This document shows, piece after piece, positions 22,401 to 55,492 of a DNA stretch of 64,000 nt (positions within the stretch are counted from its first letter, which is position 1; each line of letters opens with the position of its first letter). Where the stretch lies: NCBI GenBank assembly GCA_903813345.2, contig CAIIXF020000009.1, forward strand, positions 20,919,759 to 20,983,758, given 5' to 3'. The notes below the pieces were generated by a model, which was not told the DNA's origin, made no database searches, and worked only from the letters and a program-made list of their open reading frames with translations. Origin of the DNA: Owenia fusiformis (Eukaryota > Annelida > Polychaeta > Sabellida > Oweniidae). The position numbers and the translations under genes were made by a program.

Positions 22401-25400
22401 CTTTCAATCACACCATCCTCTTGAACACAAAATGTCGGTAATTTCTACGTTAATAGGAAGAGCAAAATAGCATTAGAAACATGCAGTTATCCAAAATGGA
22501 CTATTAAAAAGACGCAGGAACTTTTTGAACGTAAAGCAGATACAAACAAGGACAAGACAGAAATAAAAAAGGTAGTAACCATACCCCATGTGAAAAATGT
22601 ATCAGAGCAAATTAGAATAATAATGAAGAAAAAAGATAAAGTGGTAATTTTGCCTAATCATTTAATTTGCCTATTTCCTAATTTTTGCCTGGATCGGAAA
22701 ATTAAATGTCGGAAATATTGTCTTTATAATGTTATCCAATGGGAGGTTTCATCTCATTAGGAAAATTAAAATTAGGAAAATGATGAAATTTGACCATTCG
22801 GAAAATTAACCACTCGGATTAAATACCACTTATACAGTATCTAAGTAGCCTTTAAACCTATGCATGCAAACACTTCGAAATATTTTCATTCATCCTAAAG
22901 ATAATGTCAAACAGGATCGCATTTAGCGAACGTGGTATATCAAGTTCCATGCAGCAATAGTAATAAAAGTTACATAGGAGAAACAAGTAGACCTCTTGGT
23001 ACTCGCATCAATGAACACAAAACAGAAGCAGATGAGAAAAAGAGTCACTACACTAGAAACAAAAAAAGATTCTTTTAACAGCTTTAATAAATCAGCGATT
23101 ACAGATCATATTCTCCAAGTAAACCACGAAATTGATTGGAACAAATATAAAATAGTTAGCACAGAAAGAAACAGAAACAATAGGTTGATAAGAAAAGCCA
23201 TTCACATTTGAAAACATAAAAACGTCAATGGAGACATGGGCAACTTCAATCTAGATCGCTTGTGGGATGAAGTTATATTGCCATAGCAATTAAGTATTTT
23301 TTGACGTTGTTAAGGTTTAATGGCGTAATAGTAGATTTACCTGTATTCATTTCAACTGTTTTCAATTTAAATTTAGTGATCATGGATGCAGTTTGCATTC
23401 GAAACGTCTAAAACAAAAAAAATTGTAATAAAGTCTGTGACATTGAACACTTATAAATGGATTTATGTGCTGTTTGGAGCCTATAATTGAGATGAATGAA
23501 AAGTGCAATTCCACATATGGGCCAATTACGATAATTGATATTTCAAAAAATACAAAATTCGAAAATTAAAATATTCATATGACGATGGATTTTTCTTGAA
23601 TTGCAAAGGAAACACATTATATTTTATAAATTCGTAAGCGGCATCATTGGAACTATATTGGCATTTCGTAACCTGAGCAATTTTCAAAGGAATAAAAAAT
23701 TAACATATTTTCGATAATCGTTCAATAAGTCTGGTTTAATTTCAAATAAGATATTATTTATCACATTTGTGTGTGTCAGACAAACAATACACATGTTTCA
23801 TTGGATATTGAATTGTAAAAATAAAAATGTAAATAGAGTCAACGTTATCGTTTGAAATTATTAGCCAGAAATTATTTTGAACGACCCCTATGTCAAAAGG
23901 GATAATTTTTTTTTAAGTTTCAAAGCCCACTTTGAAACTGAAGTACAGTTCCTTAATAGGTCGTTCAGTTTTCTTGTTTTTGTTCTACACAACACTTGTA
24001 TTTAATCCCGGGTATTTAATAGCCACACGTAATTATTAATAAGCGTAATCAGATTATTTAAAGCGTCGAAATAGCTTATTTTCCTCGACGTATCTACACA
24101 AACCTATTCACTTACCGTTATATAGAGCGACCTAGATGCGCCAATAATATTATTTTCACTCATCGGCTTTAGTGGCCCGCAATACCTTTTATTTCATTCA
24201 TTTGAGACGCAATTGATATATTGGCAACAAATAAAATGTTCTGAATGATTCTTCTTCATTTTGGAATGTTTCTCCTACCCGATATTCAAAGATGTGTCTT
24301 AAATATTATACTTTACATTGATCACGATCTTGTACTTTCTGTCTTTACGACTCCCGTTCACATTTGCTGTTGATTTGAGTTGTTGATTGCATTGCCTTCA
24401 ATTCAACTTCAATTCCAACTAAATCCGATTAATCAATTAAGAAATGTAATATCATGTTTATCCAAGCAAATAATTGTAACAACTACATTATTTTTTAGCA
24501 GTTTTGACACCTAAGCAGGGTAGCCTAGTGGCGTAGACTGAGGCTACTTTGCGGTTGAACGTCGTGGGATACGGAGGTCCCGCGTTCGAGCCCCAGGTAC
24601 AGAGTTGTTGATCATTGTCACTACGGACACCCGGTCCGAAGGTCCAACCGTTTACTGGCCCTTGGCTTGGGTTGGTTCTCTGGCCGCTCTTGCCGGAGAC
24701 AGATTGTGAGACTGTGGTTGGTTCCTCCACTAACGTGCTTTAGTAAACTCCGGGAGTCATATAGTATGGTAGCGGGCCCCCACCAAGGGCAGTAGTGGAA
24801 CGACGCAAATCGGTCCCAGTATGGTTGCCTTGCAACTGAAGAGACTCGAGGAAATCATGCCATTCGCAGTGACCCAGAAAAGACTTTTGCTTCTTAATTT
24901 GACGTTTTAGTTCATTTATTTACATACTTTATTCATATAACTTTCCAGGCAGTTATGATTTTTATTGGTCAAATGAATGAACGAGACATCTAGATACTAT
25001 TAAATACATCTAGTATCAAAACCATAATTCGATTTGTCGGACATATATAAAATAACACTTGAAAACACAACACACATAGCTGCAATATCCGTAGCATTTG
25101 GCACAGTCGGTTCCCACGCTCTATCATTTTGTACGGTCATCATAAGATAAGGAGGTACGGTTTATTAGACCATGGGCTTTCAACAGAGTCAATAAATTGG
25201 CATGGATACTTTGAAAAATTAGGTAGCAACAAAGGGAAACACCGGAAATAATCCAGAAATGTTCACACCATTGTTTTCGTTAGTTATGGCAAGGCCCCGG
25301 AGGAAAAACAGCATTCGTGGGTAGCTTAATTTTTGTACCAATTAGAGCCATGCCTTTAACTCAACCAAGAACCGTGGGGCAAAATCCCTCTGGGTCCCAA

Positions 25401-28400
25401 TTCAATTGAGAATCAATTCAAATCAAAATCAAATTGGTCAGATGACCTGCTAAGCCATGGGCTTTCAATTAGAAACATATGTATTCAATGTTTAAAATAA
25501 TGAAACTGAAATATTTGGCAAAATAATTGATATTTCGTGAGTGGGAATGAAAACTGATGATAGAAATAATATCAGTAGCCAAAAACTGTATAGCAATTTA
25601 AACATGGAAATGATGCCAATTTAGAAGTATTTTATATGAAAAAAATGTTTGTCAAATGGTTAGAAGATGAAATAACTTCAGAATTAATGGGATCATTGAG
25701 GCACACATTGATAAAATCACACTTGGATTTGGAAAAATTTAAAGTAAAACAAATAATCAAACATAAATAAAAGAATTATGACTTTATCCTCTATGAAATA
25801 CAGAAATTGATGGTTAATTGGAATTAAGTTTGTTGAGACGACCCCTCAATCCGAAACGCCTAGCATCAGTTAAAAAATTTCTGGCCGCAACTGAGATGTA
25901 AAGATGTTCAAAGATTTTAAATTAAGCTTTATCTGAAAATATGTCTTTGCGAGATAAACTTTTAATTGAATATGAATATATAAAAAACTGATTAACATCC
26001 AGTCTCATATTAAAAAGTTTAAAGTTAAAATATTGTGGAAGTAAATAAAAATGAATTTTTAAGTTTGCAAGACTTGTCTGTTCAATTAAAAAAATCATTT
26101 ATAATTTGAACCAAGGTGTATGGTAAAGTAATATTTAAACTATCTATTTTATGCTCGTACAGTAGAATTTCTCTTGGCTTTTCAACATAGCACCATACGA
26201 GGGTTGTCCCATAAGTCTTGAAATTTTTATTCTAATTCAAAAAGATTTTGATGAATTTGGCTGAAAATTGGTATATATCAAGATCAATCAATTATCTTCA
26301 ACATGTGATAGTTTCATAACAAAATTATGAACTTGAGTAACTATTATGGTTGCTATGGTAACCGGGGGAGTCGGGGGGTGGGGCAGTAATGAAATATAGT
26401 AAAAATGTAAAATGGAGCCGTGGGAGTATTAAGGATTTTAAAGGATGGTATGTATCTTAAATTGTGAATCACCTGTCAAGATTGACAAAAACACTGTATT
26501 CTTGGTAAAATCTTATGAAATACCTCTGTGATGTCATAATAAACTAGCACAATTGCTCAATTTTGGTACAGAGCCACAGCATTTTGAAAATCAAAATGGC
26601 AGGGATTTTGTCACCAGATGTTAAATCTTTGCGTGCAGTTGTGCAATACCACGCCTCCTTAAGGCATACACCTACACAAACAAGAACAGCCATGGAAAAA
26701 GTATATAGACAGTAAACTCCAAGTGCACCTACAGTATGGAGGTGATAGAAGAAGTTAAAAACTGGAGATACCAGCCTGGAAGATCCTCCTAGAAGTGGAA
26801 GGCCAAAATCCAGTGACAATCTCATATCACATATTGCAGATAGAGTAGGCCTATAAGGGCTGAAATGAGAACTACTCAGTGTAGGAAGATCGCTTAGACT
26901 TTGATATTAGTAAGAGTACTGCTCACAGAGTGATGAAGAAAGACCTTTGGATGTCAAAGGTAGCCCCTAGATTCATTCCACATATTCTGACAGAGGAGCA
27001 GAAAAGGCAACGTGTTGAGCTGAGCCAGGGGTTCCCAAATCCTTAATTTTTACGTCATATTTGTATTTTTATCCTGTTTTCTGCCCCGGGTACCCCCAAC
27101 ATTCCATTTTTAATCATCTGTAACATTACCAAATGATCTTATTATGCTATGAAACTTACAGAGATAGTAGAAATATATCTACGTTACAAAATGTGAAATT
27201 TTAATCATTGTATCTCAAATATTCTATGAATAAGAATAAAAATTTCAAGACTTATGGGACAACCCTCGTATTTGACTTTTCAGGCTCCACTTTTATTATT
27301 CTATGCCTATATAATGTTACTGTGCACTATCATACATGTACATAATCATGTGTCTACATGACGTTTTGAAAGAGTATAGAGCTAGATTCAAAGCACTGTT
27401 CTTGCGGGTTTCAAATGAAAATATGGAAAACGCGCGAGTATGAGGACTTCAACTTTTTATGTCTACACTGACAATTGAACTTGAAATTCCCGCTGTACTG
27501 AAAAGATATAGTCCCACGCGGAAGTGCACGTCATAAAACTGATGGGTGAAGGCAATGTGCCCGTACTACTGGCAAGGATTTCGGTGCAACGCGCATCGGT
27601 AGGCCTATATGTTGGTTTTCGGCACAATGCGCGTCGGTATAATGCTTTCGGTATAATACGCGTCGGTAAAATGAGGTGATAGCAACATCTTGAATTCGCA
27701 AGCTCGGTTTTCACTGCATTCCGACCGACGGGAGCCGAGTGTGAACGAATATGTCTACCAATCCGAGTCTCATTGATGAAGTGACCATACGGTTATGGTG
27801 ACATAGCGGGTCGCCGTGATATAATTATACCCGAAAGAAAAGAACTCTTTGATAGGCCTAAACATCCTAAGACTCTAATTCCTGTTTAGACTGATGATTA
27901 GTTAGAACAAAATTGTCTTGAAGAAAAATGATGTTTTGGCGTAATGCTGATTAATTTGAGTGTGGCATGATTAGATTGACGGTGTTTGTGTTTATTAGGG
28001 AGTTGAGGCTTGCAATGTTTTTCACAACCTAAACGTGAACGAAAAATGTCTAAGCAATGCATTTGTATGGGCGATTGGTCATACGTATACGATTTTATAT
28101 GCAAGCTTAAACTCCCTATTTTCAGTTCTGTATTGGGGCATTATACACTAGGCTTCTTGAAATATAGAGCAAAATTGTTAATTCAAATTTACAAGGTATT
28201 AGTAGGTGGAATTACACCTACGATGTAAAAGCGCTTTTTAAAATCCTATCGGGTTTCGACCCGCCTTTAGAGTCAGGTGTAATGACGATCGCGGATTTAG
28301 AAAAGCGCTTTTGTAATCCTCCCAGACCCCTAGTCATTAAAAACCGCTTTCACACCCAAAGGCGGTTTAACGTGTAGGTGTAATACCGATTTTTTTTCAA

Positions 28401-31400
28401 GGCGCTTTAACTCGATTTTACACTGAACGAAAACTATATTTGCGCATGAGCATCAAGCATGTTATTGATTTCCGGTGTGGAGGAAACTTCAAAAAACAAA
28501 ATTCAAATATTGTGCAAAACTCAATCAAATCACCAAAATGTCGAAACAAAGTAGAATTTATTGGGACCACGTCAATACTGAGCGTATGCTTTCGAAATTT
28601 GTAAATAGAATAACCGTAAATTAAATAAATAATATAATACTATTGACGACGGATATTGATGATTCAGCATCCCGAACAGAAGAAAGTAGCTAATATTTTG
28701 AGCACCATAGTATTATTGAATAGCTCTTCTCGATCACTTTGACGCTCACTGGGCCAAAAATCTAAAGTCTTATATGTATACGCCCATGGGCGTATAAAAA
28801 ATGATAAAATAACGGACAATATTACCCCTTCTTTCAGTTATACGCCCAGGGCTTATATACGAGAAATTCCGGTACTATTGTAGATTGGGGAAGGCGAGGG
28901 GAGGGGATGATTGAATAGTTGAAATTACCTCTCTACAATGAAGTCAAAAAAATGACGAGATCTTTGTCTTGTCCACATCGTTCGTTCCTGACCCATATTA
29001 CCAAGGATGCCAAACAGCCCCAACAAAAGTACCATCTTCATTTTACTGGATCTCTCTTGGATCTCTCCTAACGACCGAGCTTCTCTCTTTGCGCGCTCGT
29101 GCATTGTTTTCCATGCTTTCTTTAGCACATATTTGTTAACGCCAGAGGTAGATTGAATACGATTTAAGAAAAAAGGAACATACAGTATCGGATCATTTTG
29201 AATCTCCAGAGATGGCGCTACGGTTCAAAGTGTATATCTAAATAGCAGATTTTGATGCAAATGCGATGGTTGATGGCAAATTTTTGTCTTAAATCAGTCT
29301 AAAAGCGCTTTAGAAAAATCAAGTGTAATCACGAAAAGTTGTCTTCAAGGCGCTTTTAAAATTCTGGTGTAATCAGGATTGCGGTTTTCTAGCCTACGTT
29401 ACCCAAAACGCCTTGAAAACGCCTTTAGCCATGAAATAGGTGTAATTCCACTAAGTGTCGTAATTGTATTCTCTCGGTATTAAGATTGCTTTTTCAGAGT
29501 GAGTATTGTGTTTCTTATTCATTTCCTCTTTGGGTTCGTCTAATATCGAAATAACCGGCGTTTAATTTGATACCTGAAACGTATCACTTGCACGGCATCA
29601 AAGGCAATTCATAATTAATATCCACAAGAACGATAAACATCATTCTGACACTCATAGCATCTCTCTCTCTGTTGCATCGCAGCAGCATAGAGATGGAGAG
29701 GGCGTGGCTTACCACGATGGATAAACATGCAGAAGATAAAGGATAGTTGAGCTTCAATGTGATAAACAATAATGAATATTATTAAGTATATTGTCTTTTC
29801 TTTGAAAACGCAGGTTCAGTTATTTTGACGCCATTTCTTGTTTCATTGCGGTCGGTTACACATGGAAGGATAAACTACACACAATATTATTCAGGAGTTA
29901 ACCTTCAGTGTTTTCTCTCTATTAACTTTAATTCCCTGTGCAGTATTCTACTGGCATGAGTTGTACATACCTTAAGTTTGCTGTGATTTTCTCTATGGCT
30001 TACTTACTATGGCTGAACTCAACGGTAAATTAATCTAAGGTTCCTGCATTACCTGCGTTGTGCCCACAACCATGTTGTGGTCTCTGCACGGAACTGCAAA
30101 GTCGGGTGATAGCCGGATACCCCCCCCCCTTCAAGCCACACTGCAGCGTCCCATTTACCTGGGTTGTACCTTCATTAAAGCCACTGCAGTGACCCACTCG
30201 AATCACTTAGGTTGTAACTGCATTAAGGACACTGCATTGTCCCACTCACCTGGGTTGTACCTACATTAAAGCCACTGCAGCGTCCAACTAACCTGGGTTG
30301 TACCTACATTAACGCCACTGCGGCGTCCCGCTAACCTGAGTTGTACCTACATTAACGCCACTGCAGTGTCCCACTCACCTGGGTTGTATCTATCCGAGCA
30401 GGTGTAGAAGTCTCCGTGTTTACAGGAACATCCTGATCCCCAACGGTCATTTGTGACAACAGTGTCTTTAACAGGACTAAAATCAAATCAATACTAGTAT
30501 ACGGCTGTTATGGAGATTCAATGGCAGAACATGACGAATGTATTTTCAAAGTGTGTAGAAACTCTGATTGCAGTGGCTCATTGATTAAAAGAGAACAATG
30601 GAGAAGGGGAGTTCAACATGAGTTGTATTCCATTCCCGATTCCATTTGATGAGACTCGACCTAATACTATGCCAATCAGTGTACTCTTCGTTTCCCTCTT
30701 GCTTCAGAAACGCTTCGATCGTATTTTAGGAGATATTTCGGGATACTTTCTACACGGAGTACCTTTCATTGTAAAGCCACGCAATGAAGTCTGTAGAATT
30801 CCAGTACCAATCCTTGGCCTCCCAATCACCATCTGACCAGATAACATCTGGTTTGTAGGCATTAACAATCTCTATCAACTCGGGTAAAGTCTTTTCCTTT
30901 GGAATGAAAATTAAGTCCAATGTAGTTGAATATGTAGACGTTTTCACTATTAATGTACCTCTGAGATTGAATTTTTCGAGAATTGTTTACTTTACTGTAG
31001 GCTTATTAAATGAACAAGCAGAGGACCAAAAATGATAGACCCTCTTACTATAAACAGCTTCAAAGCGTTTTTCCCAATATTTTCCAATGTCTATATATAG
31101 TCTTTTTATCATAAATGGTAGAGCTGATGGGAAGGGGTTTCGACCAGTGGTGGAGCTGCCGGGAAGTAAATTCCAACTAAAGATAAAGCCAGTGCCGGGC
31201 AGCGAGGTCAGACCCTTAGTGGAGCTACATGGAAGGGAGTTAAAATCCATGGTGGAACTACCAGGTAGCGATTTACAACCGCTGAGAAGTTGCTTACCAT
31301 GACAAACTTGTTCGTTTGGAACTTGTTAGCTTTGTCCTGAAGGTAGAGAGGATGAAACCATTCAAATAGAGAGTGGTAGAGACCAAAGTGGGTGTTGGTG

Positions 31401-32367
31401 CGACTACGGATGGCACTTGCAAGATCACCTAAAATTGATTGTAGCAATAAACCGCCAATCATATAAGATTAGCAGAGTAAAGGGGTGGCAAATTTGAGCT
31501 TTGATATTTGATAATACCAACTGTACAATTATGACATTGATTGTATTAATGCTGCTGGCAATGATATGGATGTTGTACTTGACGTCTATGTGTTACTGGT
31601 AATTCTGATCAAATTCTGATTCTAACCAAAGTTTGATAAGGTGGGTACTGTATCGGACACAGCGCTGTTCAATTCTTATAAACATTTTAGTTAAGAGTAC
31701 CTATAAGGTCCCTATGAGGTCCAACATCCAGAGAATTCCAGTTGAAGGAAACGTTGGAGGGCCAGTGTGTGAATCCCTCGTGGTGCTTGCTGCTGAGAAC
31801 GATGTACCTGTAAAATATAAAAACATGTAATAGGTATGAATATCTCGTTATAGTTCCACTAAGAACAATTGAACTCTTATCCTAATGCGTTTTGAAGAAT
31901 ATTGAGAAGACTATTACAAAAAACATTCTCTCAATTGTATTTTGCTTATTTTCAGGTTTCATTCTCTCAATTATTCTTTCAAACACTTACCTTGCTCCTG
32001 ATTCATTGAACATATCAGCCCATAACTCTGGATCATAGAACTCCGCTGTGAACATTGGAGCAAAGTCGGCGTATTCAAACCCAGGAGGGTAGTTAGCTTT
32101 CATGAAGTCAACGTAAGCTTGGGCATGTCTCCCCTTCCAATTCCACCAGAACCATTCCGACCCAAAACTAGGTACTGAATAGACACCCCAATTGATGAAA
32201 ATACCAAACTTTGCCTCGTCATACCAGGTCGGTATAGGCCTACTGTCCAAGGACTCCCATGTTGGGGAGTAGTGAATACATTGACACGTGAAGCCGAGGA
32301 TGCTCCATATGATGAAAATGTTCCTTATGTTTATGTGCCAAACTGATTCCATTGTCATTTCATACAA
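16402..32367 (-). CDS. alpha-L-fucosidase B (GH29), 467 aa
   Basis: Eight exons join in frame: 32367-31991, 31807-31701, 31428-31298, 30896-30763, 30476-30379, 17800-17668, 17027-16857 and 16654-16402. The total is 1404 nt, matching the usual ~466 aa of animal lysosomal or secreted fucosidases. A hydrophobic N-terminus ([11 protein letters not shown]) suggests a signal peptide; starts at M1, M4 or M6 are possible. GH29 landmarks: [30 protein letters not shown] in exon 2, nucleophile motif [16 protein letters not shown] in exon 4 (Asp227 from M1), NDRWGSG in exon 5, SWGYRR in exon 6, [11 protein letters not shown] in exon 7 and the C-terminal beta-domain in exon 8. The enzyme would remove alpha-L-fucose from glycans. 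Oddity: the conserved FIHWG histidine is Asn. Intron 5 is 12.6 kb and full of transposons; unassigned parts (17801-18475, 23290-24510, 24890-26190, 29455-30130) are AT-rich without genes I can support. Confidence 0.95.
19907..20620 (+). pseudogene. transposon-associated ORF with CTHEE-DTRLFVH and GDTDVVVLA motifs, broken
   Basis: One frame runs 19907-20428 (173 aa) and, after a stop, another continues 20438-20620. Motifs: [53 protein letters not shown], and [18 protein letters not shown]. From memory, these occur in a widespread unnamed repetitive protein of cnidarians and molluscs; the TDVVVLA stretch suggests a PIN/FEN-like nuclease fold, which is inference. The inverted partner on - lies at 19811-19468. 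A stop codon, and a SINE insertion at its end, make it non-functional. Confidence 0.6.
20594..20898. mobile_element. tRNA-related SINE inserted in the inverted duplication
   Basis: Comparison with the left arm shows that about 305 bp are extra here: gcagcatta is followed by the insert and then by gggcccaataag, continuous in the other arm. The head has a B-box-like gggtttgattctc, and the tail is taataataattatta. It is flanked by 'atta' on both sides. Confidence 0.7.
21872..22345 (-). mobile_element. Tc1/mariner-like fragment (transposase C-terminus)
   Basis: It begins with tacagtgtgtccccaaaaaa (a transposon-end type sequence). On - it encodes [19 protein letters not shown] followed by HVEG and a stop, resembling the C-terminal 'CI..GGHFE' end of mariner-group transposases. 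Most of the transposase is missing. A short similar end lies at 9478-9510 (acagggtgaaccaaaaaaag). Confidence 0.55.
22390..23286 (+). pseudogene. Penelope-like retroelement fragment: RT tail and GIY-YIG endonuclease
   Basis: [19 protein letters not shown] and, after breaks, [11 protein letters not shown] match the C-terminal end of Penelope-like reverse transcriptases. Then [30 protein letters not shown] and [20 protein letters not shown] give the GIY-YIG domain. A one-base frameshift occurs in the run of A before [16 protein letters not shown], and the frame ends WDEVILP-stop. A hairpin insert (about 22640-22815) interrupts the middle. It is a decayed copy in fucosidase B intron 5. Confidence 0.8.
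24514..24890 (+). mobile_element. tRNA-derived SINE
   Basis: An A box (gtagcctagtggcg) and a B box (gcgttcgagcccc) lie at tRNA spacing near 24521 and 24591, followed by about 290 bp of non-tRNA body ending near 'gcagtgacccag'. There is no intact tRNA cloverleaf, so it is not a working tRNA gene. The 80-aa antisense frame over it is chance. Confidence 0.8.
26196..27270 (+). mobile_element. deleted mariner-like transposon with intact terminal inverted repeats
   Basis: The ends tacgagggttgtcccataag and cttatgggacaaccctcgta are perfect inverted repeats and pairing continues through 'tcttgaaatttttattct'. The TA at each edge fits a TA target duplication. Inside, in the + direction, are [18 protein letters not shown] and later [16 protein letters not shown], typical of mariner transposases. 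Stops, frameshifts and an internal deletion (about 1.08 kb in total, and the catalytic part missing) make it inactive. Confidence 0.88.
27996..28118. repeat. 123-bp MITE TAGGGAGTT...AACTCCCTA, copy 1
   Basis: Ends tagggagttgaggcttgca and tgcaagcttaaactccctat pair. A copy in the opposite orientation lies at 62369-62489, in intron 1 of the BRI3 gene; both carry 'tatgggcgattggtcata' or its complement. Confidence 0.85.
28202..29453. mobile_element. 1.25 kb element with GTGGAATTACACCT ends and AAGCGCTTTT iterations
   Basis: gtaggtggaattacaccta at the left and taggtgtaattccac at the right are inverted. Both subterminal zones (28225-28420 and 29300-29440) repeat 'aaagcgctttt' and 'ggtgtaat'. On -, 29128-28925 encodes a basic 67-aa frame with [20 protein letters not shown] ending at a good donor (aggtaatt), vaguely like the start of a PIF/Harbinger nuclease; that is weak. 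The inner part is probably non-autonomous. Confidence 0.7.
30133..30391. repeat. 43-bp minisatellite that includes the exon 5 donor of fucosidase B
   Basis: About six units of 43 bp run from intron 5 into the end of exon 5. The unit contains acctgggttgtacctacatt and gccactgcagtgtccca. On -, each unit carries CCCAG|GT(G/T)AGT, i.e. the last codons of exon 5 (AACCCAG) plus its splice donor. The true donor is at 30379/30378, the rightmost unit. Upstream units have diverged. Confidence 0.85.
31110..31285. repeat. minisatellite in fucosidase B intron 3
   Basis: Diverged units of about 45 bp with 'gtggagct(a/g)c(c/a)(g/t)ggaa' recur at 31149, 31218 and 31252. They are non-coding and end just before the exon 3 donor at 31298. 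Confidence 0.6.
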
Positions 32368-34972: not shown

Positions 34973-37900
34973 TTATACTAGTCCATCAAGACGGAATACC
35001 CATGCCCATTGACAGGGCATTTGGTTGGCAGGAATGGGGGGAATTTCAACCACAATTCCACCACCTGTTCTCTTGTGCCAGTTAAATGTCCCTGCATAGC
35101 CAAGAAGGGAGACTTTGAGGTTATCGTTGGGTGTAACTGCTCCTAGCTCCAAACTGTTGGTCATAGGCCACTGCAGGTTAATAGAATACACGCTCGTTCC
35201 AGTTTCAGACTTGCCCATTGTGTACCTTAAACAGAGTAGTACTAGTAGTTACCTCAGTTGCATAATGCATCTTAGTGAGGATTGTAAAATAAAAACAAGG
35301 CATTAACATGCAAAATGTCACCACATGCCATTTGTTACAAATGCCAAACACCAACCATCAAATGCCAAACACCAACCATCTAACATAATTGGGTGTCATC
35401 ATCAGAAGTGGTGTAATAATTACATGATGATAATAACGAATGTTTCATAACGTATGTTTCAGAGATAACACATAAAACAGATAAATAAAACATGGCAAAC
35501 GTTGTATTTGCATCATGTTACAGATTACAGATTTTTAGCATCTTTGTTAAAGAAGAGTATCTTTCTGTATGATATCATAATGGTACCTACCACACGCCCT
35601 TTGTTACAGTATCATTCTGATGTGCCCATGGTTTTGACTTAAAGATAGACTGGCCATTCACATTAAGCCACTGTCCAACATCTTTAAGACGTTCTTCGAA
35701 GATAGGCACGATTCTTCCATCATGCGTTGGTCCAACATTCATCAGCAAATTACCTCCACAACTAGAAATAAACAATAACTTGGACATGTACTGCAAATTA
35801 ACTTTCTGAATTTCATATTGAATTTAAATCATTTGAGACATTTGATTCACTTACATTGGTTCAATAGAGCAGGCCACATCAGTTCAAGAAAAAGCAATAT
35901 TAACGATCCTAACATTACCTGACTGTTTCTACAAGTTCTGTGATAAGTTCCTGAGTGGAGAGATAATCAGCAAGTCCAGAGTTCCTCCTGTATCCCCAGC
36001 TAGCCTTGTCTATTGTCATACAGTTCTCCCACTTGTGCTTTTGGAGAACTCCTAAAATAATACATGAAGTGACTATTTAATACATAACTAGACATATAAC
36101 TCACATATTTGACTCTGTTTCAGAGGAGAATGACCAGTTATCAGGATTTATTACTGAGTGCAACAAATAAATAATTCTACAAAGATTAGTACATGTACTA
36201 CTAAACACTGATTTGTGTCAGTGACACATTCAAGAAGCCATTAATGTGCAAAATGTTACCACCTGCCATTCGTTACAGATGCCATTTGTTACAGACCCCA
36301 TATAACAGACGCCATTTTGTACAGACACAGGGATACAGACGCCAAATGCCATCCACAAAAAAGTTTGAGACAATAACAATATGTCACTACTTGGGGTGGT
36401 GACATAAAAATTAATATTCAGTGGTATTTAAAGATCTATTTGCATACAACATGTACAAAAGTATATACAAGGAAACACAGATTGAGTAAAGCAAAACACT
36501 TTAAGTTAGTCAAGCCTTTTTGATGTGTACAACCAAAGAAATCCAAATATTTGGCATGTTGATAAAATTAATACAGACATTTCGCAATCATGGAAGCACA
36601 TATGAACTCCCTATTAACTCGTAATACAATACTAACCTGGGTTATACCTATCGGAACATGTGTAGTAGCCGCCATGCTTACATGCAGTACCAGAGCCCCA
36701 TCTATCATTTGTCACTACTGTGTCCTTCACTGGGCTAAAAATGTACAACAAAAAATCATGTCATGTTGCATCACTTTTAATACTGTAACCCACCTTTATT
36801 TTGTTCACATTTTTTTCAAAATTCAAATACAGATTTGCATTATTTTATGCACAGCGAGTTGTAGATAGCGAGTTCAATTTCATGGATATCAGTCAACGTC
36901 TTGTACACATCTTGAGTTTGTTGTCTATGTTAATGTCATTGACCTGACCTGACCTTCTTTGTATTCGGTACCCAAATTGAAAAGCAAATTGTTGATAAAA
37001 GTTCGACTAGTAGTAAAACATATACAACGAAATACAACAAAATAAAGTTGGCTTACAACATTTTACAAATATTATTTTAGATTTTCTAAAAAATGTAAGA
37101 GTTGATTTTATTTTCATTATTATATCATCAAATCATATTTTTCTAAATCATCATTAGACAAGTTGAATATAAAGAATTGTTATGTTCAAGGTAACCCAAA
37201 AATAGACTCAGACTAAACCTGCACATCGCCCTAGAGTGCAAACTTGGGTTGTTCTGGGTCAATTGTAAAATTCTGAGCTAATATGAAATAATATATGATG
37301 ATGAATAAATAGGGCAAATCTTGTGCACAATGACAATAAATGTGTCATTCAGATGATTGTTCCTTCAATTGCTGGGATTGTCGCTGACAATTTGCAGCCT
37401 ATATATGCATATTAAAAATTATTTGACAGTGTTTGTGGCCCATATTTTTGGATTCTTTTCAAGACAAGCACACAAACAATCAAAATGAGGAGTTTGCACA
37501 ATAAATGTCTCATTTCAAGATATCATGACAAATAAATATAGTTTATCATGATGATTAATAACGAAATGTTAACTTGTTACACAAAGATTGGACATAAAAC
37601 ATGTGAAAAATCAAATAATTCAATGTACACTTTTTGGGTCACCCTCTAATCAAAGGTTATAACTCTAGTATGTTACAAGTTCAAATCACATCATTAATAA
37701 AATAAAGCCAAGTAATATTTCAACTTAAATTGTTATCCCGCCAGATAGTGGAGGCATTATTTAAAGGTTTTAGCTGGAGCTTCATTGCTGACATTTACAA
37801 AAGACAAACAAAAAACTTAATGTACTTTTATACCTGAAATATTATGTATGAAGATGGAGTTACTGGGATAAAAACATTGATACCATGATGCAACTTAAAT

Positions 37901-40900
37901 CTTCTTGAAATGATGAATAGAATACTTTCTTTTACTCCTTTTAATTGATACTTCGTGTCACCCAGATTCCCTCAATTAGGGTGCAGAGGGTATAGTAGCA
38001 TGATAACTATTTTGAGCATACATTAAGATACATTTAGCACCGCAGCATTGAAAATATGAAAGCACATATTAAGCTTTCCTCTAAGGTAGCAGCAAAAGAT
38101 AGAATGTGTTATGGAACCAATGTTTACAAGACCTTACAATCCCAAAGTTAACAGCTGACAAAATATTTACGATACTGTACTCCCACTAATATTTGACGCC
38201 ATTTTATTTTGGTTTTTGAAATTTTGTGGATATTATGTTTCGCTAATTTTTAGCATGCGATACCATGCTTTCCACTTCAAAATCAGCCATGATTACCCTT
38301 CATCCAGAGCAATTTTGTGAGAATGTTCATTTAATTATGATCTTCCAGAATCAGAATGTAAGAATACGGTAACCTCCCAACCTTTTATCGCCCAATACTT
38401 GCCGAAACTATCATCAACATTGAGTGAAATAAATTCCCAGGAATTTCAAGACTATTATATTTCGCGAATCTTCCAAAACTCGCGAAAAACGCAAAATATA
38501 GTAGTACGCGAAAATTATGGGGAGTACAGTAACTGATCAAATATGGAGGTTCATGACAACTTAGAATGCAGAAATGTTAAAATGCATTTGATTTGAATTT
38601 CTCAGAAAATATGGTCAGGACTATTGGCATTTCAGAATAGAATTGGCACCGAATAAGGAATGCTGCATCAGAGCAAAAACCAGAATATAATTTAAGGGAA
38701 CAAATGGACCAGGACAACAGCACATCATTTATAAATCTCCATATTGAGGTTAAGTTCTTCAATTCTGACAGGTGGAAAATCTTTCTGATGATGCATCTTA
38801 CATTTTCAACAGTTCATTAATATTACTATATGTATTTCCCCATTCAGATTTCCAAACCCAATTCCACTATCATGCTCAACTGTATAACTCAGTGTACCTT
38901 TCATTATAAAGCCACGCAATGAAGTCTGTAGAGTTCCAGTACCAATCTTTTGCCTCCCAATCACCATCTGACCAGATAACATCTGGTTTGTAGGCATTAA
39001 CAATCTCCATCAACTCAGGGAGAGTTTTATCCTAGGATTAAATCAAAAACAACCAAAACGTAAGCCCAATAATGTGATGTACCTGTCATTGTAAAGCCAA
39101 GCGAGGAATTTGGTAGAGTTCCAGTACCAATCTGGGCCTGCGTCTCCGTCAGACCATACAACCTCTGGCTTGTATGTGTTCACGATCTCATAGAGTTCCA
39201 TCAGAGTTTTATCCTGAGAAACACAAAGAAACTGACATACCTGTCTTCGGCTCTTCATTTCTACCCCATCCTAATATTTCACACTTAGAATATAAAATTT
39301 GGAAACTGGGCTAGAAGCCATCTTCGTTCACTCGGCTCCCGTTGGTCACAGTGAAGACCGAGTAGGCGAAGATGGCTAGCAAGACATTTTCTTGAGGGTG
39401 GCTACGACAATCAATGCACTAGAACTCCCATGTGAATGAATCATTGGATCTTGGGAGGCATAACCCAAAATCTAAGCATTCACATACTCAAAGGCTTCAG
39501 CCAGAGCTTTATGCAGAGATGCAACAGGAAGATGGCAAAGCTAAAGATATTGCACATAATACCTCAGTCACATCTGCTTAAATGGCATTAAGGGGTGACA
39601 TTTCAGCAACTGCTGATGTTATGTGGCCACTGCAAGTATTTCTTGATTTCAGGGAACTATGGCAACCAGAAAGCAAATGTGACTGAGACATACATGTAAG
39701 CCTTGGTGTAGGTTTAATTGAATTGAAAAATCATAAAAATAGCAGCTCTGTGTCAACAGCTACAAACACACTCAAGGGAGGGAACATTAAATCTATTGAG
39801 TGACAACCATTTTGTAAGTGATTTAATTTGAAATACAACAATTTCCGAAAATGTGAACTCAAGCAAAAAAATGTTTCCCTTTCATATTCATCCTCCTAAG
39901 CAGGTATCCAGAATCCGTACCTCATTCTTCCCCCTGCTATAACCAATTTGGAAGCGCCCGATTAAACTGAATCACGTGATCTAATTATGACAATGACTTA
40001 TACATAATTTCTGTGGCAGTATTGCGACGGCCAATCAGATTACGAGTTCTTAATTGGGGAGGGGGTAAAAAGAAAGTATATATTCTGGATTTTGAAGCCC
40101 TGTGATCAGAGGATGTTTCATGTTTAGCCAGAATATTTGTGATTGATGCAGTTCATGTCTCTCAAAATTTAAATGTTCCACCCCTAAACTACTTCCATAA
40201 CCTCAGTTAACAGTGTCAAGATATAGGGAGAGAAAATATTCTAGCATAGTAAGAGCATCATGACATGTATAACCTCAGTACCTATCATTGTATAGCCAGG
40301 CAAGGAAGTTAGTGGAATTCCAATACCAGTCTGGACCTTTTGATCCATCAGACCACACAACATCTGGCTTGTAAGTGTTCACTATCTCAACCAATTCTGG
40401 GAGAGTTTTTTCCTTGTAATATCAACCAATGTTTATTCAGTGAAGATTGTTAATCATCAAGGGGGTAGCTACACCTATATACTTGTGCATACCCGAGTAT
40501 TTGAAAACAATTTTGGTCAGGTATTTTCAGATTCAGTTATATCAGAAACACTCAGATTGCATCACACCGTATCAAAATAAATGTACATGTGATAAAACTT
40601 TTCAAAGATTTGTTGGCTTTCCATTCCACTGAGATCGTAAACTCTGAATATAACACTTCGTCAATGATCATGAAATAAGGTGCTAGGTGTTATGTCACAT
40701 AACAATGGAAGGTTTTTCAAAATAAATCATTATTATCAACGTACTGAGAATTTATACTGAGTAAATATATTTCTTTTGACTTACCATGACAAACTTGTTG
40801 GTCTGAAATTTGTTAGCTTTGTCCTGAAGGTAGAGAGGATGGAACCATTCAAATAGAGAGTGGTAGAGACCAAAGTGGATGTTGGTACGGCTACGGATGG

Positions 40901-43900
40901 CAGTTGCAAGATCTCCTGTAAACATCAAAAAGTAAAATATCACAGAAAGTGGGTGCGTTTTGCCTAACAAGTGCTAATAATTAATACAGAAAAAAGCATT
41001 CAGTTATATATCTTTCAACTTATTTACTGTCAACTAATAAGGCTGTTCACTTGCCTACAAGATCTCTGTGGGGTCCATTGTCATAGGCATTCCAGTTCCA
41101 GGAGACCTTGGAGGGCCAGTTGGTGAAACCCTCATGATGTTTGCTTGTCAAGACAATGTACCTGAAACATTATTTATGCAATTATTTATTTCATCGAACA
41201 TCACCTGGTAAAGTTGAATCTTCCTTATTTTTGTAAAGCCTTCACAGAGAAAAATACTGAACCTAGTGAGGTAAGGCCTGATACCTTAGAGAAGATGATA
41301 ATGCATCATGGGCAATATTATCATAAGTGAGTGAAAAATTCAGAAGAGAAAGCAAGGTAAATAAAGTAACCAGATACTATATCTAGTATTACATGTAACC
41401 ATATTGGATGAAGATAAACACATTCAGCTCGTACATTGTATGACATCAATTGCTGTATTAAACCATGGGCCCATGATTATACTTAATCACCAAAATGAAC
41501 ATACATGTAGTTTTGAGGAAGGATTTTTATATACTGTACATTTTTTAAAGTATTAACACACATGGTTTCATAGCCGACTTTGACAATAGAAACGAGGATC
41601 GGAAGCTACATTTTTGAATCATGGATTTGCTGAAATGAGAATTTGCCATGTTAAAAATAAGAGAATTTTCAAGAGGGCATACATCGGTGGTTGAGAGTAT
41701 ACAGAATGTAAAATATACAACTTTTATGGAATATGTATCTAAACATTATTGGAAACTATGGGTTTTCAAGCCACCATGGTTTGGAAAAAGTGAAAATCGA
41801 CTACTCGATCATTTTATTTATGGTCCAAACTGTACCTACTGAGGCCAGATGAAGATTGTGTTGCCCTGATAGACCCGTGGTGTAGCCAGCACTGCATCAA
41901 ATGTGGAATTTCTAGTAATTTCTAGACGTGCTTAGTCGGTCTAGGAACTCCGTGTATCTAGAGATTTCTAGGCGTGCTTAGACGTGCTTAGAGCTGGCGT
42001 GGACAGAGCGTGACCAGAGTCTAGAAATCTCTAAGCACGCCGTGGTTAGACACAAGACAAAATTAGTCGTTATTAAATTGCCATGTGAGATTTTGCGCTA
42101 TATATGGAAACATTTAAATCATAATTTAACGCACGTGTTAATATTTCGTGTTTTGCTTTAGCTAAATACGGGATATCAAATCAAAAAGAGTATGTTTTCA
42201 CTTTATATCCGACTTGAGTCACGAAAAGTACATCGCAACATGGCTTCTTAATTGTAAACTTGTTATAAATTAAGAAGGTCTGTTTAAATGGGTATTTCCA
42301 CTAATCAACGCCCATTATTTCGCATTGACAAGTACCAGGGCCGAATCCAGCATTTGCTAATATTAGGGGATGACTTTTGAATTATTCCAGGGGTGAGGTC
42401 ACATTTGATATTTGCTCAAAAATTACACGAAAACTGCTCAAAATGGTGAGAGAATTATTGGCCAGGGGATACAGTATTATTTTAAACCAGACATCTCTGT
42501 CGGCGAGGGGGGGGGGCTAACTTATTCCAGGGGTGGGGTCAAATTTGATATTTGTTCAAAATCACACGAAAACTGTTCAAAATGGTGAAAGAATAATTGG
42601 CCGGTGGATGCAGTATTATTTTAAACAATACATTACTGTCGGCGAAGGGGAGGGGGGCTAAACATAATCTTGTCATAAACAACTACTGATTTATATATAT
42701 GAACGGATATTTGTAAATTTGGTTTAAAAAGAAACCGAATAATAGGGTAAAAATGAGGGAGACACAGACGTCACAACAGTGCACTAAGCTGAGACAGAAT
42801 GAGAATCATATGTCTGGACTCGCAAGATTTTCATAAACATATTTGTTGATTGCTCGCGAAAACAAAAACAAATTTCAGGGTTCATTGGCATCACACAATA
42901 TTTGCAAAATGGGGGAGAGCATTTTCCCAGCTTTAACTATCAGATTCAGTAGCACCCTGCCCTTGATATATTAATACATAGTTTTCTTGTACCCCTTTTC
43001 AAAAATACAACGAACTAAATACATAGTAATAATGATCTTGAAATTGATTTCTTTGATCTGTAATCTAGATCACACAATAACTAATTAACTGTTTGATTGC
43101 GTTTTTGCTTCTTCAAAGACGGGATATCCCAAAATTACCTTGATTATAGCATGGGCTTTCAAGAGAGTCCACGATTGCAGTCTACATTGGTCTATAGGCT
43201 ATTTTTAATTCCTCGTTATTTTAGTTGTGTATCTCTGAATCCCGGCTCTGATTATCATATACAATTTACTTTAACCAATTTTACCAGTTTTTTGAACTTC
43301 AAAACTGTCACATACATATTGGTGGTCCCTAATCATATTAGGACCAATAACAAATAACATAATTCAACTGGAAAACATACAATACAGGGTGATCAGTAAG
43401 TTATGGGAATTTATCTGTCATTTCATTATTTTTCCACAAAATCACTTGAAATTTTCAAGGTGAATGGGGAATGTAATTTTGGGTTGGATAAAGCAGTTTC
43501 ATTGTCATATGATATCACAGTGGATAGTTATTGTTACTATAGCAACATGACAAATGGCATAGCGGGTCAAGCAAAATTTGAATTCATTTTTATTTTACTC
43601 GAACCAAAAGTATGGTTGATCAATACATATTTGGAGGACATATTTCTGTAATTTTTCTATTTTTTCTAATATTTCTAACTTTAGTCTCTAAAGTAACATC
43701 TGAATTGCGATATAAGAGTGTACTTTGCTCTATTTTCTTAACATTCGTCAGACTCTCAAAGTAAAAAATCATGACTCAAAATAGCGGGAAGTTATCTTCC
43801 ATTATGACTATGCTCCTTCCCACTCCCAAACTGCCCATACTACTCTTGAATTCGGGTTCACAGTTGGGTTATAATGAAAACACGCGCTACGCGCTAACGC

Positions 43901-52900: not shown

Positions 52901-54924
52901 TCAGGCTTTGATTAGATAGGTGGCCGAAAAGGGGATCCTGTTACTAATTTTATGTGGGGGGGGTGTATGTAATATTGACCACCGTCCAAACAATTATTTC
53001 CCGCACTATAGGAGAGAAGTACTCTAAAAAGGGTTTCAAAAAACTATTTTGAATCATCGTTCTGTAATTGTGCAATGGAGTTTTTGTTTTTAGAGTAACG
53101 TACACTGTATTTTAATTCTTGTTTGCTTAATAAGATTAATTTCAATATGATTCGCAAGTACTAGTATGATCACTGCATCAAATGTGGAATTTCTTGCAAT
53201 TTCTAGACGTAGGATGGTCTAGAAACTCCGCGTATCTACGGGGAGAGGCAACTTAAATGAATATGCTTATTGCGTCCATAGGCGAAGCGAGGGGGGTGCA
53301 ATAAAAATAAAACCACGAGAAAGAAAAAGCTCAATTTTGAAGAAATGTTTGTAAAATTCAAAATAAATCTTATTTTCATGGCTTGTTTATGCAACAATCG
53401 CAACCCTGTGACTGAAAACCGAAAAGCTTTTGGCGATCGCACCCCCATCCTGAATGAAAGCTGGCTTCGCCCCTGCCCTATATCAATTAGTAATGATACA
53501 TTGCATACACAATATGAACACATAGTTTTTTCATCCATTTGGTCAGACGCACAATAATAATACTATTCTTGTATCTTGCTTGATACCCGGGGCTTGATGT
53601 AACAACTTGATAGATGCCCGGGAAAAAATATTTTTACTAGTTATCAGTACAGCTTGTTTGGTATTTTACAACCTTTAAACAGTACGTGATTTATTATTCA
53701 ATCATATATGTAAAACGTCATGGTATACGTGAACAGTTTGTTTTACAAAATAATAAATAAAATAGATAAAAGGTAAAAAGAAATCAGTATATTTCAGTGA
53801 AAATATGTCTAAATTATGAATGTTGATCATAATTGCTTATAACAATATACATTCATCTGATTCGATAATTACTTTATTCTAGATTTCAATCATTAGTCTC
53901 AAGGCGTGCCAAGACTTTTTGTCACACTCTAAGCACGTCTTTGCACTGCGTGTGCTTAGACGTGCCTAGAGATGTCTAGAGTTGGTTTCATCGCGTACCT
54001 AGACGTGTCAAAACTAGTCACGCCTAAGCACCCGGCGTGCTTAGACTTAGTTTCTAGACGTGCTTAGTCTAGAAATTCCATTTTTCACGCAGTGCAGGGG
54101 GAACACTGGGATCGGCTGATGCACTGCAGCACAAGTTTTCTACATAAGGCTAAGACTGAGCTCAGATATATAAATAAACTGCAGAGGCGCATTAATGCAC
54201 CTACATGTACAGTGTAAGACTTGTCTTATATTACTCGAGTCTCTAGCCAGTGCACAGTGGTCCACATGCCATTTTCTAGACAAGTAATTTGGCTAGAGAC
54301 TCGAGTAAGTCTTATACAGTACATTGTACATTGTACAGTAAGACTGGCTGAGAAAATACTAGTCATATAAATCCGACCATTGTATGCTGTTCTTCGATAT
54401 TCCTTGTTCTTATTTGGATATTTATTTTTTATCATTTTCTTTGCATACACGGTCTCGTATGCAAGAAAATAAGAAAAAATAAATATCCAAATCAGAAAAA
54501 ATAACAACAAATAACATCATACGAGGGTCAGATTTATATGACTAAGAAAATACATGCATACTCACTGAGCTCCTGATGCTTTGAAGATGTCTGCCCATTG
54601 ATTTGGGTCATAAAATTCAGCTGTAAACTTGGGAGCAAAGTCTGCATATGTGAAGTTTGGTGGATAATTCTTTTTCATGAAATCGATATATGCCTGACTC
54701 TTTGCTCCCTGCCAATTCCACCAAAACCATTCTGAGCCGAAACTTGGAACCGAAAACACACCCCAGTGGATGAAAATACCAAATTTTGCCTCGTCGTACC
54801 AAGTAGGTAAAGGACGGGCATCTAAAGACGCCCAAGTCGGATCATATTTAGCAGCACTGCACGCCGTTATGGTAATAAAAACAAAAACAAAAGCACAAAA
54901 CATTGTTTTGCTTCCGTCCTCCAT
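34973..54924 (-). CDS. alpha-L-fucosidase A (GH29), with three alternative copies of exon 4
   Basis: Exons: 54924-54566, 41161-41055, 40915-40785, then one of three exon 4 copies (40412-40282, 39213-39083 or 39031-38898), 36734-36637, 36051-35919, 35761-35591 and 35225-34973. All exon phases and most lengths equal those of gene B, so the two are tandem duplicates. The product is 460 or 461 aa. The N-terminus [18 protein letters not shown] is a likely signal peptide. Motifs: [36 protein letters not shown] (nucleophile Asp221), [24 protein letters not shown] and a C-terminal beta-domain. It should be a secreted or lysosomal exo-fucosidase. Intron 1 is 13.4 kb, packed with nested repeats. The intron after exon 2 begins with GC (gcaagt). 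Inside the gene, 36738-38170 and 41170-41880 show no further exons. Confidence 0.95.
35283..35400. repeat. GTCACCAC repeat family, copy 2 (partial)
   Basis: aatgtcaccacatgccatttgttacaaatg followed by a direct repeat of 'atgccaaacaccaaccatc'. It lies in the last intron of fucosidase A. Confidence 0.7.
36238..36420. repeat. GTCACCAC repeat family, copy 3
   Basis: aatgttaccacctgccattc, 'gttacagatgcc' repeated, and the end 'aacaatatgtcactacttgg' with 'ggtggtgaca'. It lies in the intron between exons 5 and 6 of fucosidase A. Confidence 0.75.
38173..38532. repeat. 360-bp MITE with TACTGTACTCCC ends
   Basis: tactgtactcccactaatat at the left and attatggggagtacagta at the right are inverted. Inner arms contain 'tttcgc' motifs. 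It lies in the intron after the alternative exon 4 cluster of fucosidase A. Confidence 0.8.
38898..39031 (-). other. fucosidase A alternative exon 4, copy 3
   Basis: 134 nt, acceptor aatcctag, donor aggtacac. It encodes [17 protein letters not shown], then [18 protein letters not shown] and DFIAWLYNE. It differs from exon 4 of gene B at about 10 of 134 nt, far less than from its own neighbours. Its one-codon-longer tip (GDWEAK) is the form also found in gene B and resembles that of vertebrate FUCA1. Confidence 0.93.
39083..39213 (-). other. fucosidase A alternative exon 4, copy 2
   Basis: 131 nt, acceptor tttctcag, donor aggtacat. It encodes [17 protein letters not shown], then [17 protein letters not shown] and KFLAWLYND. 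It differs from copy 1 at 7 of 43 residues. It lies 1069-1 = 1068 nt after copy 1 in the direction of transcription and only 51 nt before copy 3. Confidence 0.93.
39310..39380. repeat. 71-bp hairpin between alternative exons
   Basis: gctagaagccatcttcgttc pairs with gcgaagatggctagc, and cactcgg pairs with ccgagta. It lies about 97 nt upstream of alternative exon 4 copy 2 in the transcribed direction, where it could influence acceptor use. Confidence 0.75.
40282..40412 (-). other. fucosidase A alternative exon 4, copy 1
   Basis: 131 nt, acceptor attacaag, donor aggtactg. It encodes [17 protein letters not shown], then [17 protein letters not shown] and NFLAWLYND, starting in phase 0 and ending in phase 2. 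The residue after WSDG is Ser, where the other copies have Asp. The acceptor (AAG) is weaker than those of copies 2 and 3 (CAG/TAG). Confidence 0.92.
41890..42050. repeat. CTAGACGTGCTTAG repeat, short copy
   Basis: It begins cactgcatcaaatgtggaat and contains five or so variants of ctagacgtgcttag in both orientations. The same start is found at 53171. Confidence 0.75.
42385..42665. repeat. two tandem copies of a ~135-bp unit
   Basis: Each unit runs from 'ttattccaggggtg' through 'cacgaaaactg(c/t)tcaaaatggt' and 'cagtattattttaaa' to a G-run. Related fragments occur at 7095-7180 and 52085-52170. Confidence 0.75.
43867..45972. mobile_element. innermost element with 35-bp perfect inverted repeats of ACGCGCT units
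   Basis: The first 35 bases (ggttataatgaaaacacgcg, then ctacgcgctaacgcg) are the exact complement of the last 35. Both ends continue with more imperfect 'gcgc(t/c)aa' units. It is flanked on both sides by the same nine bases, tcacagttg (43858-43866 and 45973-45981), a target duplication of the length made by Mutator-like elements. The 2106-bp interior has no transposase I recognise and includes a 'gtagccag' MITE. Confidence 0.9.
45066..45185. repeat. MITE AGGCCCGTAGCCAG, copy 1
   Basis: Ends aggcccgtagccagaggggg and agctggctacgggc are inverted, with an inner 'gggggagc...gctccccc' stem. A second copy is at 49971-50120. Confidence 0.85.
47400..47690. repeat. degenerate minisatellite, ~60-bp unit
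   Basis: Diverged units around 'cc(c/t)(a/c)tgttaaagccc' and 'ttttacagggt(a/g)(c/t)ctacccc' repeat four to five times. The proline-rich 99-aa frame over it is a translation of the repeat. It lies in fucosidase A intron 1. Confidence 0.7.
48255..48510. repeat. G-run repeat family (AAAATTCAAAATAAATCTTA), copy 1
   Basis: A G run, 'ttacgatg(a)gtgcg', then 'accattacatagaagaaaag', 'tttgtaaaattcaaaataaa'. The same order is at 51705-51935 and 53270-53480. The C-run end seen in the 51.7 kb copy is missing here. Confidence 0.75.
48606..48737. repeat. hairpin repeat, CCCAAGTCGGTAT arms
   Basis: ggtagccttgcccaagtcgg pairs imperfectly with ccgacttggaaaaggcaag...ggtatccc, and the centre pairs 'tatcttgatt'/'attcaagata'. 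Non-coding. Confidence 0.65.
49434..50212. repeat. inverted-repeat element carrying a nested MITE
   Basis: ctaccctttgcattcgtttg at the left is matched by the complement cgaacgaatgcaaagggtag near 50190-50212. The MITE 49971-50120 is inserted within it. Confidence 0.6.
49971..50120. repeat. MITE AGGCCCGTAGCCAG, copy 2
   Basis: ggcccgtagccaggatttac and cccttggctacgggcc are inverted ends, with G-runs inside. Same family as 45066-45185. Confidence 0.85.
51070..51440. repeat. palindromic MITE, copy 2 of the 4794-5201 family
   Basis: It shares gaccgttaatttgaatttta, 'aatcaaggattgtga', 'tactgcaccgtttttcttca' and 'ggtcgtagttaggac' with 4794-5201, in the same order. Confidence 0.85.
51705..51935. repeat. 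G-run repeat family, copy 2
   Basis: It starts with ccaagtgggggggggggtac and ends with a C run before 'gactgaaagctggcat'. The inner 'accatgagatagaagaagaa' and 'tttgtaaaattcaaaataaa' match the other copies. Confidence 0.75.
53171..54095. mobile_element. 0.9 kb element with CACTGCATCAAATGTGGAA ends and ACGTGCTTAG clusters
   Basis: cactgcatcaaatgtggaat at the left pairs with attccatttttcacgcagtg at the right; both sides carry 'atttctagacgt' and the right side about ten 'cgtgcttaga'/'tctaagcacg' units (53900-54075). A G-run family repeat (53270-53480) is inserted near the left end. Confidence 0.75.
53270..53480. repeat. G-run repeat family, copy 3
   Basis: cgaagcgaggggggtgcaat, 'accacgagaaagaaaaagct', 'gtaaaattcaaaataaatct' and, at the end, 'aatgaaagctggcttcgccc', whose last bases pair with the start. 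Confidence 0.75.
54358..54544. repeat. 187-bp hairpin next to the exon 1 donor of fucosidase A
   Basis: actagtcatataaatccgac pairs with gtcagatttatatgact, and further in 'cttatttggatatttatttt' pairs with 'aaaataaatatccaaat'. Its edge is about 20 nt from the donor at 54565. A second hairpin (ttactcgagtctctagcca / tggctagagactcgagtaa) lies at 54231-54307. Confidence 0.8.
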
Positions 54925-55492
54925 CTTGGCTTGATCATATGACAGTCACGTGACTGTCAAGTTTTCACTATATGTCAAACTATAAGTATACTGAAATATA
55001 TTAAAATCTATTGAATAGTTGCACATGTCTACTGTCCAGCATGTATTTTTAAAATATCAAATTTATATAAATTATATATATCATTTGAAAAGTGCTGATT
55101 TTTTTTACTTAAAATTACAATTTTACCCATATTATAATTACATCGATTCATCTATTAGTTTGACATACATCCCATCAAAATATTGTCAGGTGATGAATTT
55201 TGAAATCTTACATTTCCTTAGTTTTTAATACAATTTATGACTTTGGATGAGTATTTTGTATCTTTATAACATAAGTTTAATACTTTATTTACATTATATA
55301 CAATTTAAATCATGTCACATAGTCTGTTTGCTTGTCTCACTTGAGTTGGAAAAAGTTGAATTTTTTTAGTTTTCTTCACATTCTTCCAGATTCTTTTGAA
55401 GTAGGATCAGTATTACTTAGTTTGCACAAAATTATCTCCTGGTCCCCGTAATTCACATTCTTCCAGATTCTTTTGAAGTAGGATCAGTATTA

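Follow-up and report, generated by a model that had tools for sequence, protein, structure and literature searches.

Can one fucosidase gene make several enzymes that differ in the very segment bearing the catalytic nucleophile? The question is raised by a locus of the annelid Owenia fusiformis, in which exon 4 of a GH29 alpha-L-fucosidase gene occurs in three versions side by side. Specificity in glycosidases mostly diversifies by gene duplication. Mutually exclusive exons are well known, also in enzymes, and what would be unusual here is that they concern the nucleophile segment of a GH29 enzyme and come in three versions. In human, 236 events of mutually exclusive tandem exons are given in the part of PMC9741552 drawn on here. 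The sequence-only reading that drew attention to the locus knew of no described splicing of a GH29 catalytic exon, and this held in searches of the open-licence literature, which returned no mutually exclusive exons for GH29, fucosidase or glycoside hydrolase, nor an exon-4 array in FUCA1. In the portion seen of one paper (PMC9265791), the spliced gene is vitellogenin, not a fucosidase.

We show herein that the three exons are intact, bear the marks of constraint on protein, and are arranged such that only one at a time keeps the reading frame. The window, that is, the whole stretch of DNA analyzed, comprises 64,000 nucleotides (C9:20919759-20983758) of a 498-Mb genome; unless a locus is named, positions are those of the window.

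Results

Gene A and its three fourth exons

Gene A, the exons of which were rebuilt from splice sites, encodes a FUCA1-type GH29 alpha-L-fucosidase and runs on the minus strand from 54903 to 34973. Exon 1 (54566..54903) specifies the signal peptide and the start of the GH29 domain; the ATG at 54903 was taken as the initiator, and a second in-frame ATG is present at 54924. Exon 2 (41055..41161) has a GC donor (41053-41054), exon 3 (40785..40915) ends in phase 0 at 40785, and exon 5 (36637..36734), which needs two upstream bases at its 36734 start, bears the Asp aligned to the human acid/base residue. Exons 6 (35919..36051) and 7 (35591..35761) follow, and exon 8 (34973..35225) encodes the C-terminal domain and the stop. 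Domain profiles PF01120 and PF16757 scored above their cut-offs in all three isoforms of gene A, with E values against PF01120 of 5.1e-138, 1.6e-137 and 1.5e-140. A palindrome, GTCACGTGAC, some 40 bp before the ATG at 54903 (54945-54954), has no other exact match in the window; we take it to resemble the CLEAR element of lysosomal genes.

The copies of exon 4, all on the minus strand, are 4a (40282..40412, 131 nt, reading ...ATTACAAG|GAAAAA...), 4b (39083..39213, 131 nt, ...TTTCTCAG|GATAAA...) and 4c (38898..39031, 134 nt, ...AATCCTAG|GATAAA...). Each has its own AG and GT sites, is entered in phase 0 and is left in phase 2. Coordinates, lengths, phases and motifs had all been given by the sequence-only reading and were recovered exactly when gene A was rebuilt. 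When 4a was compared with the window, 4b was matched at an E value of 4e-21 and 4c at 1e-18, values that exclude chance likeness; the only other convincing match was exon 4 of gene B, and the rest had E values above 0.7.

Transcripts of gene A with a single copy are open from ATG to stop, with 453 (4a), 453 (4b) or 454 (4c) amino acids. It had also been claimed that pairs of copies, or the skipping of all, shift the frame, and all five wrong combinations indeed stop early: after 201 amino acids upon skipping, 239 with 4a and 4b or with all three, and 242 with 4c joined to either 4a or 4b. The last exon junction follows 372-654 nt after these stops, a distance at which nonsense-mediated decay (NMD) is expected. 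Such frame logic arises of itself whenever an exon of a length indivisible by three is duplicated and is, alone, no proof of use; "obligately" exclusive use of the copies would be a deduction from the frame.

The three exons might instead be parts of several fucosidase genes that overlap in part, the more so as a tandem paralogue (gene B) adjoins gene A and the genome contains at least six GH29 loci. However, neither a profile search (E 0.001) nor tblastn (E 0.01) revealed a second set of GH29 exons 1-3 or 5-8 in the interval from 54566 to 34973. The copies thus have no second gene to serve, and we hold this arrangement to be highly improbable. An assembly artefact, in which haplotypes were collapsed or misjoined, is a general risk of which no specific sign was found; as the copies differ pairwise at 23-29% of bases, far above what is expected of haplotypes of one exon, it is scarcely credible.

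The nucleophile lies within the alternative segment

In human FUCA1, the nucleophile is Asp225, the acid/base residue Asp276 and a glycan site Asn236 (PMC9548408, in the part drawn on). Alignment to the human structure 7pls, counted from Asp225, places exon 4 at residues 204-247, and this numbering agrees with Trp223, Asn236, Asn273 and Asp276 as they are named in that part of the same source. Gene A has its family and architecture in common with the human enzyme (7pls/7pm4), and the equivalents of Asp225, Asp276 and Asn236 all align. The equivalent of Asp225 is encoded in the swapped exon (codons 40349-40347 in 4a, 39150-39148 in 4b and 38968-38966 in 4c), and that of Asp276 in the constant exon 5. 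Between WSDG and YW, the segment reads SKGPDW in 4a, DAGPDW in 4b and DWEAKDW in 4c, compared with EWECPDT in human; the loop after the nucleophile thus has seven residues in 4c, which is the human length, but is one residue shorter in 4a and 4b. The alignment bears out the earlier statement that the nucleophile sits inside the alternative segment, with differences in length and sequence just after it. That loop may touch the aglycone, and the likely effect of the swap is an altered fit of substrate or aglycone, as with coq-2 (see Discussion).

All three copies are constrained as protein

The copies were compared pairwise over 43 codons by Nei-Gojobori counts. Between 4a and 4b, differences amount to 17.4 at 26.0 synonymous sites and 12.6 at 103.0 non-synonymous ones (dS 1.68, dN 0.133), a ratio of 0.08 that, like any dN/dS value here, is rough because dS is saturated. 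In the comparisons of 4a and 4b with 4c, synonymous sites are beyond saturation, with dN values of 0.151 and 0.187, respectively. Amino-acid identity between copies is nevertheless 0.73-0.84. Neutral evolution was simulated 5000 times for each copy; with a branch length of 0.37 substitutions per site, a low value set by hand, mean identity dropped to 0.43-0.45, and values of 0.72 or higher were obtained in at most 0.06% of runs; a length of 0.84, half of the dS of 1.68, was also run.

Comparison with outside relatives points the same way. Identity to human FUCA1 is 0.70 for 4a, 0.66 for 4b, 0.67 for 4c and 0.67 for exon 4 of gene B. Against four further GH29 loci of the genome (L001, L002, L003 and L004, in that order), the values are 0.59, 0.55, 0.59 and 0.64 for 4a; 0.52, 0.52, 0.59 and 0.61 for 4b; 0.56, 0.51, 0.69 and 0.55 for 4c; and 0.58, 0.56, 0.69 and 0.55 for gene B. 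As these identities are similar, no copy stands out as decayed. WSDG or WTDG is kept in all eight exon 4 sequences of the six GH29 loci. The sequon aligned to human Asn236 is NST in 4a, 4b, 4c, gene B and L001, NAT in L003, and absent from L002 and L004. Premature stops or relaxed substitution in two of the copies, the outcome that would have spoken against the sequence-only reading, were sought within this one genome and did not appear.

Between 4c and exon 4 of gene B there are 10 differences, seven of them synonymous (P 0.0004 against neutrality), which are not assignable to one gene or the other. Since 4c has been homogenized with gene B (see below), its constraint inside gene A comes down to those 10 differences. 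Judged from these comparisons, each copy appears to be under purifying selection as protein, with a weaker case for 4c. The copies are old, as 4a and 4b are separated by a dS of 1.68 and both are saturated against 4c. Past constraint is no proof of present use.

Some copies might be recently dead or transient remnants, such as a 4c copied from gene B, too young to have decayed. The 92.5% identity of 4c to exon 4 of gene B, with only those 10 differences, fits such an origin, but 4a and 4b are old by their dS and both are saturated against 4c, the excess of synonymous changes between 4c and gene B argues against neutral drift, and splice sites and frames are intact throughout; this explanation is improbable.

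Probable homogenization with gene B is confined to certain exons

Gene B (16402..32358, minus strand) is a tandem paralogue of gene A with eight exons as modelled, and its single exon 4 (30763..30896, minus strand, 134 nt) is of the c type. Three pairs of exons stand out by their identity between the genes: exon 3 (40785-40915 in A, 31298-31428 in B; 92.4%), 4c and exon 4 (38898-39031 and 30763-30896), and exon 6 (35919-36051 and 17668-17800; 92.5%). Over these pairs, identity is 92.4-92.5% and dS 0.38-0.45, whereas exons 1, 2, 5, 7 and 8 are 70-76% identical and saturated at synonymous sites. When pooled, synonymous sites differ at 25 of 79 in the former set versus 168 of 201 in the latter (Fisher P 1.7e-16).

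High identity extends beyond the exon borders by about 20 bases at most, if at all. Because exon 5, which lies between 4c and exon 6, is unaffected, a single continuous conversion tract does not account for the pattern. A clustering of differences within exons, which conversion should also leave behind, reached nominal significance only in 4c (P 0.04), with P values of 0.37 for exon 3 and 0.23 for exon 6. Exon-limited ectopic gene conversion between A and B is the simplest account that the pattern suggests; conversion would be limited to exons because the introns of the two genes no longer match. Homogenization reached 4c, while 4a and 4b stayed distinct. In gene B, a 43-bp minisatellite of 5.8 copies (30139-30392) overlaps the last bases of exon 5 and repeats the region of its 5' splice site (CCCAG|GTGAGT-like) into the intron.

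Other GH29 loci and the origin of the copies

The GH29 loci of the genome, at least six in number, comprise genes A and B, L001 (C1), L002 (C2) and two intronless full-length genes, L003 (C161; 460-1836 of the locus) and L004 (C2:23.82 Mb; 455-1852). Within the DNA read, the five loci other than gene A have one exon 4 region each; that of L002 has a GC donor (5478-5479 of the locus). A tree of seven sequences, built from exons 1, 2, 5, 7 and 8, pairs A with B as sisters (support 93). In a tree of exon 4 with nine sequences and 45 columns, 4c joins exon 4 of gene B (70), and the three copies of gene A plus that of gene B are grouped with a support of 34. Amino-acid identity between 4a and 4c is 0.75, close to the 0.72 between the unconverted exons of A and B, and the split of 4a and 4b from 4c may therefore be about as old as that between the two genes. 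Whether copies were lost from B or gained in A can be read in either direction.

A short loop (WTDGDSGPYWYW) like that of 4a and 4b also occurs in L004, where it is part of a stand-alone intronless gene. As L004 falls outside A and B over exons 1, 2, 5, 7 and 8, where it groups with human FUCA1 (support 92), and as the placement of its exon 4 has a support of 34, the short loop may be convergent. The idea that L004 is a fossil cDNA of a transcript of the 4a or 4b type was dropped for the same two reasons.

How exclusive use might be enforced

The gap between the donor of 4b and the acceptor of 4c (39032..39082, minus strand) is 51 nt long, shorter than every other intron measured. Genes A and B otherwise have introns of 139-13404 nt, and eight introns of L001 and L002 span 99-822 nt, the shortest becoming 114 nt with the next acceptor, which gives a better frame fit. 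Between neighboring TCP-1 exon matches, 25 gaps span 163-7079 nt; these were picked by hand among 60 matches, two neighbors being taken as a pair if they adjoin in the profile or share no more than about 10 of its positions.

In vertebrates, the mutual exclusivity of OGDH exons 4a and 4b is enforced by a branch point that sits too near the preceding donor (25-41 nt in human); a donor-to-branch-point threshold of roughly 50 nt is discussed for that gene (both in the part of PMC7969005 drawn on). In gene A, a single motif resembling a branch point, CTTAC, occurs in the stretch 20-45 nt before 4c, and its candidate A is nucleotide 22 counted from the donor of 4b. With an intron of 51 nt and a candidate branch point 22 nt from the donor, joining of 4b to 4c is probably blocked sterically. 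The two systems differ, as far as that source describes OGDH, in that its distant branch points are mapped and lie in an intron of 118-131 nt (birds and mammals), whereas gene A has an intron of 51 nt in which a motif match marks the candidate branch point, and in that the OGDH swap alters calcium sensing, whereas that in gene A would concern the nucleophile segment. A distance below about 50 nt is found, by motif match, for 4b-4c, but not for 4a-4b, which are separated by 1068 nt (39214..40281, minus strand).

That longer intron contains a MITE-like foldback (39300-39390) with at least 40 matches genome-wide, itself included (40 of 206 candidates were scored); a role as a regulatory hairpin just upstream of 4b was considered and dropped, since the element is a dispersed repeat. 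An ungapped search within this species for intron-intron pairing of the Dscam-like docking/selector kind found none above control: in all six pairs of introns, the observed score was reached by 26-70 of 100 Markov-resampled controls.

The splice sites of 4a are poor. The polypyrimidine fraction of its acceptor is 0.45, tied lowest of 16 with that of gene A exon 2, and its donor score is -0.78, second-lowest of 16 by weights that were not trained. With both sites poor, 4a may need an activator or may be a minor copy. Donors of 4a, 4b, 4c and gene B exon 4 are all weak GTAC types.

These features lend some weight to a different explanation, namely that one copy (4b or 4c) makes nearly all of the enzyme and the others are rarely used or act as poison exons that adjust expression by way of NMD: 4a has the poor acceptor and very weak donor just described, the weak donors are common to all copies and to gene B, and double inclusion leads to an early stop. 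On the other hand, protein conservation is not needed in a poison exon, and the copies, with dN values of 0.13-0.19 at or near synonymous saturation, have kept the nucleophile and the NST sequon without decay. We regard this explanation as unlikely.

Discussion

On the basis of the observed anatomy, reading frames, constraint and spacing, we consider it fairly probable that gene A carries a three-way mutually exclusive exon 4 cluster, which swaps the segment around the equivalent of Asp225 together with the loop that follows, and the cluster is probably functional. All three exons would then be used, with each transcript including one copy and encoding a GH29 enzyme of the lysosomal type. Exclusivity of 4b and 4c would be steric, owing to their 51-nt spacing, and the remaining wrong combinations, as well as skipping, would shift the frame and be removed by NMD. 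With the acid/base Asp in constant exon 5, the isoforms would have the same catalytic chemistry, the difference among them being the loop next to the nucleophile. Of the mutually exclusive isoforms with altered specificity originally proposed, the anatomy, the frame and the swap of the nucleophile segment have stood, and the change in specificity is a prediction drawn from them.

The nearest parallel is coq-2, in which exons 6a and 6e are mutually exclusive in helminths, annelids and molluscs (PMC7434440, in the part drawn on). As that part has it, and as proposed for gene A, homologous exclusive exons remodel the substrate-binding core of an enzyme, and substrate or aglycone fit might be altered among the fucosidase isoforms in the same manner. 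The differences are that coq-2 has two such exons instead of three and encodes a membrane prenyltransferase, and that both splicing and the change of substrate have been demonstrated for it, whereas the case of gene A is built from sequence.

In the Owenia genome, a locus reached through a UbiA search (L025) has, among the plus-strand open reading frames listed, a tandem pair (2074-2280 and 5710-6069) that align at 47%. These bear Leu and Ser versus Phe and Ala, as reported for the a and e forms of coq-2, and are themselves not profile hits. They seem to be an exon pair of the coq-2 a/e type, which would point to the synthesis of rhodoquinone by the worm, and enzyme exons proven elsewhere to be exclusive would thus have the same appearance in this genome. 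To our knowledge, the swapped segment of coq-2 is not nucleophile-bearing.

If the cluster works as proposed, a glycoside hydrolase would join those enzymes, such as COQ-2, in which a substrate-binding region is changed by splicing. In an otherwise identical protein, a splice-swapped nucleophile segment would also serve as a natural experiment to learn how specificity depends on the loop that follows the nucleophile, and the comparison of genes A and B offers a clear candidate for exon-by-exon homogenization in an animal gene pair. A wider picture, which we put forward only tentatively and with more doubt than confidence, is that splicing yields three enzymes that prefer different fucosyl linkages or aglycones, and that catalytic exons in addition move between neighboring genes by exon-limited conversion. 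If this were true, active-site cassettes would form a shared, swappable set across neighboring genes.
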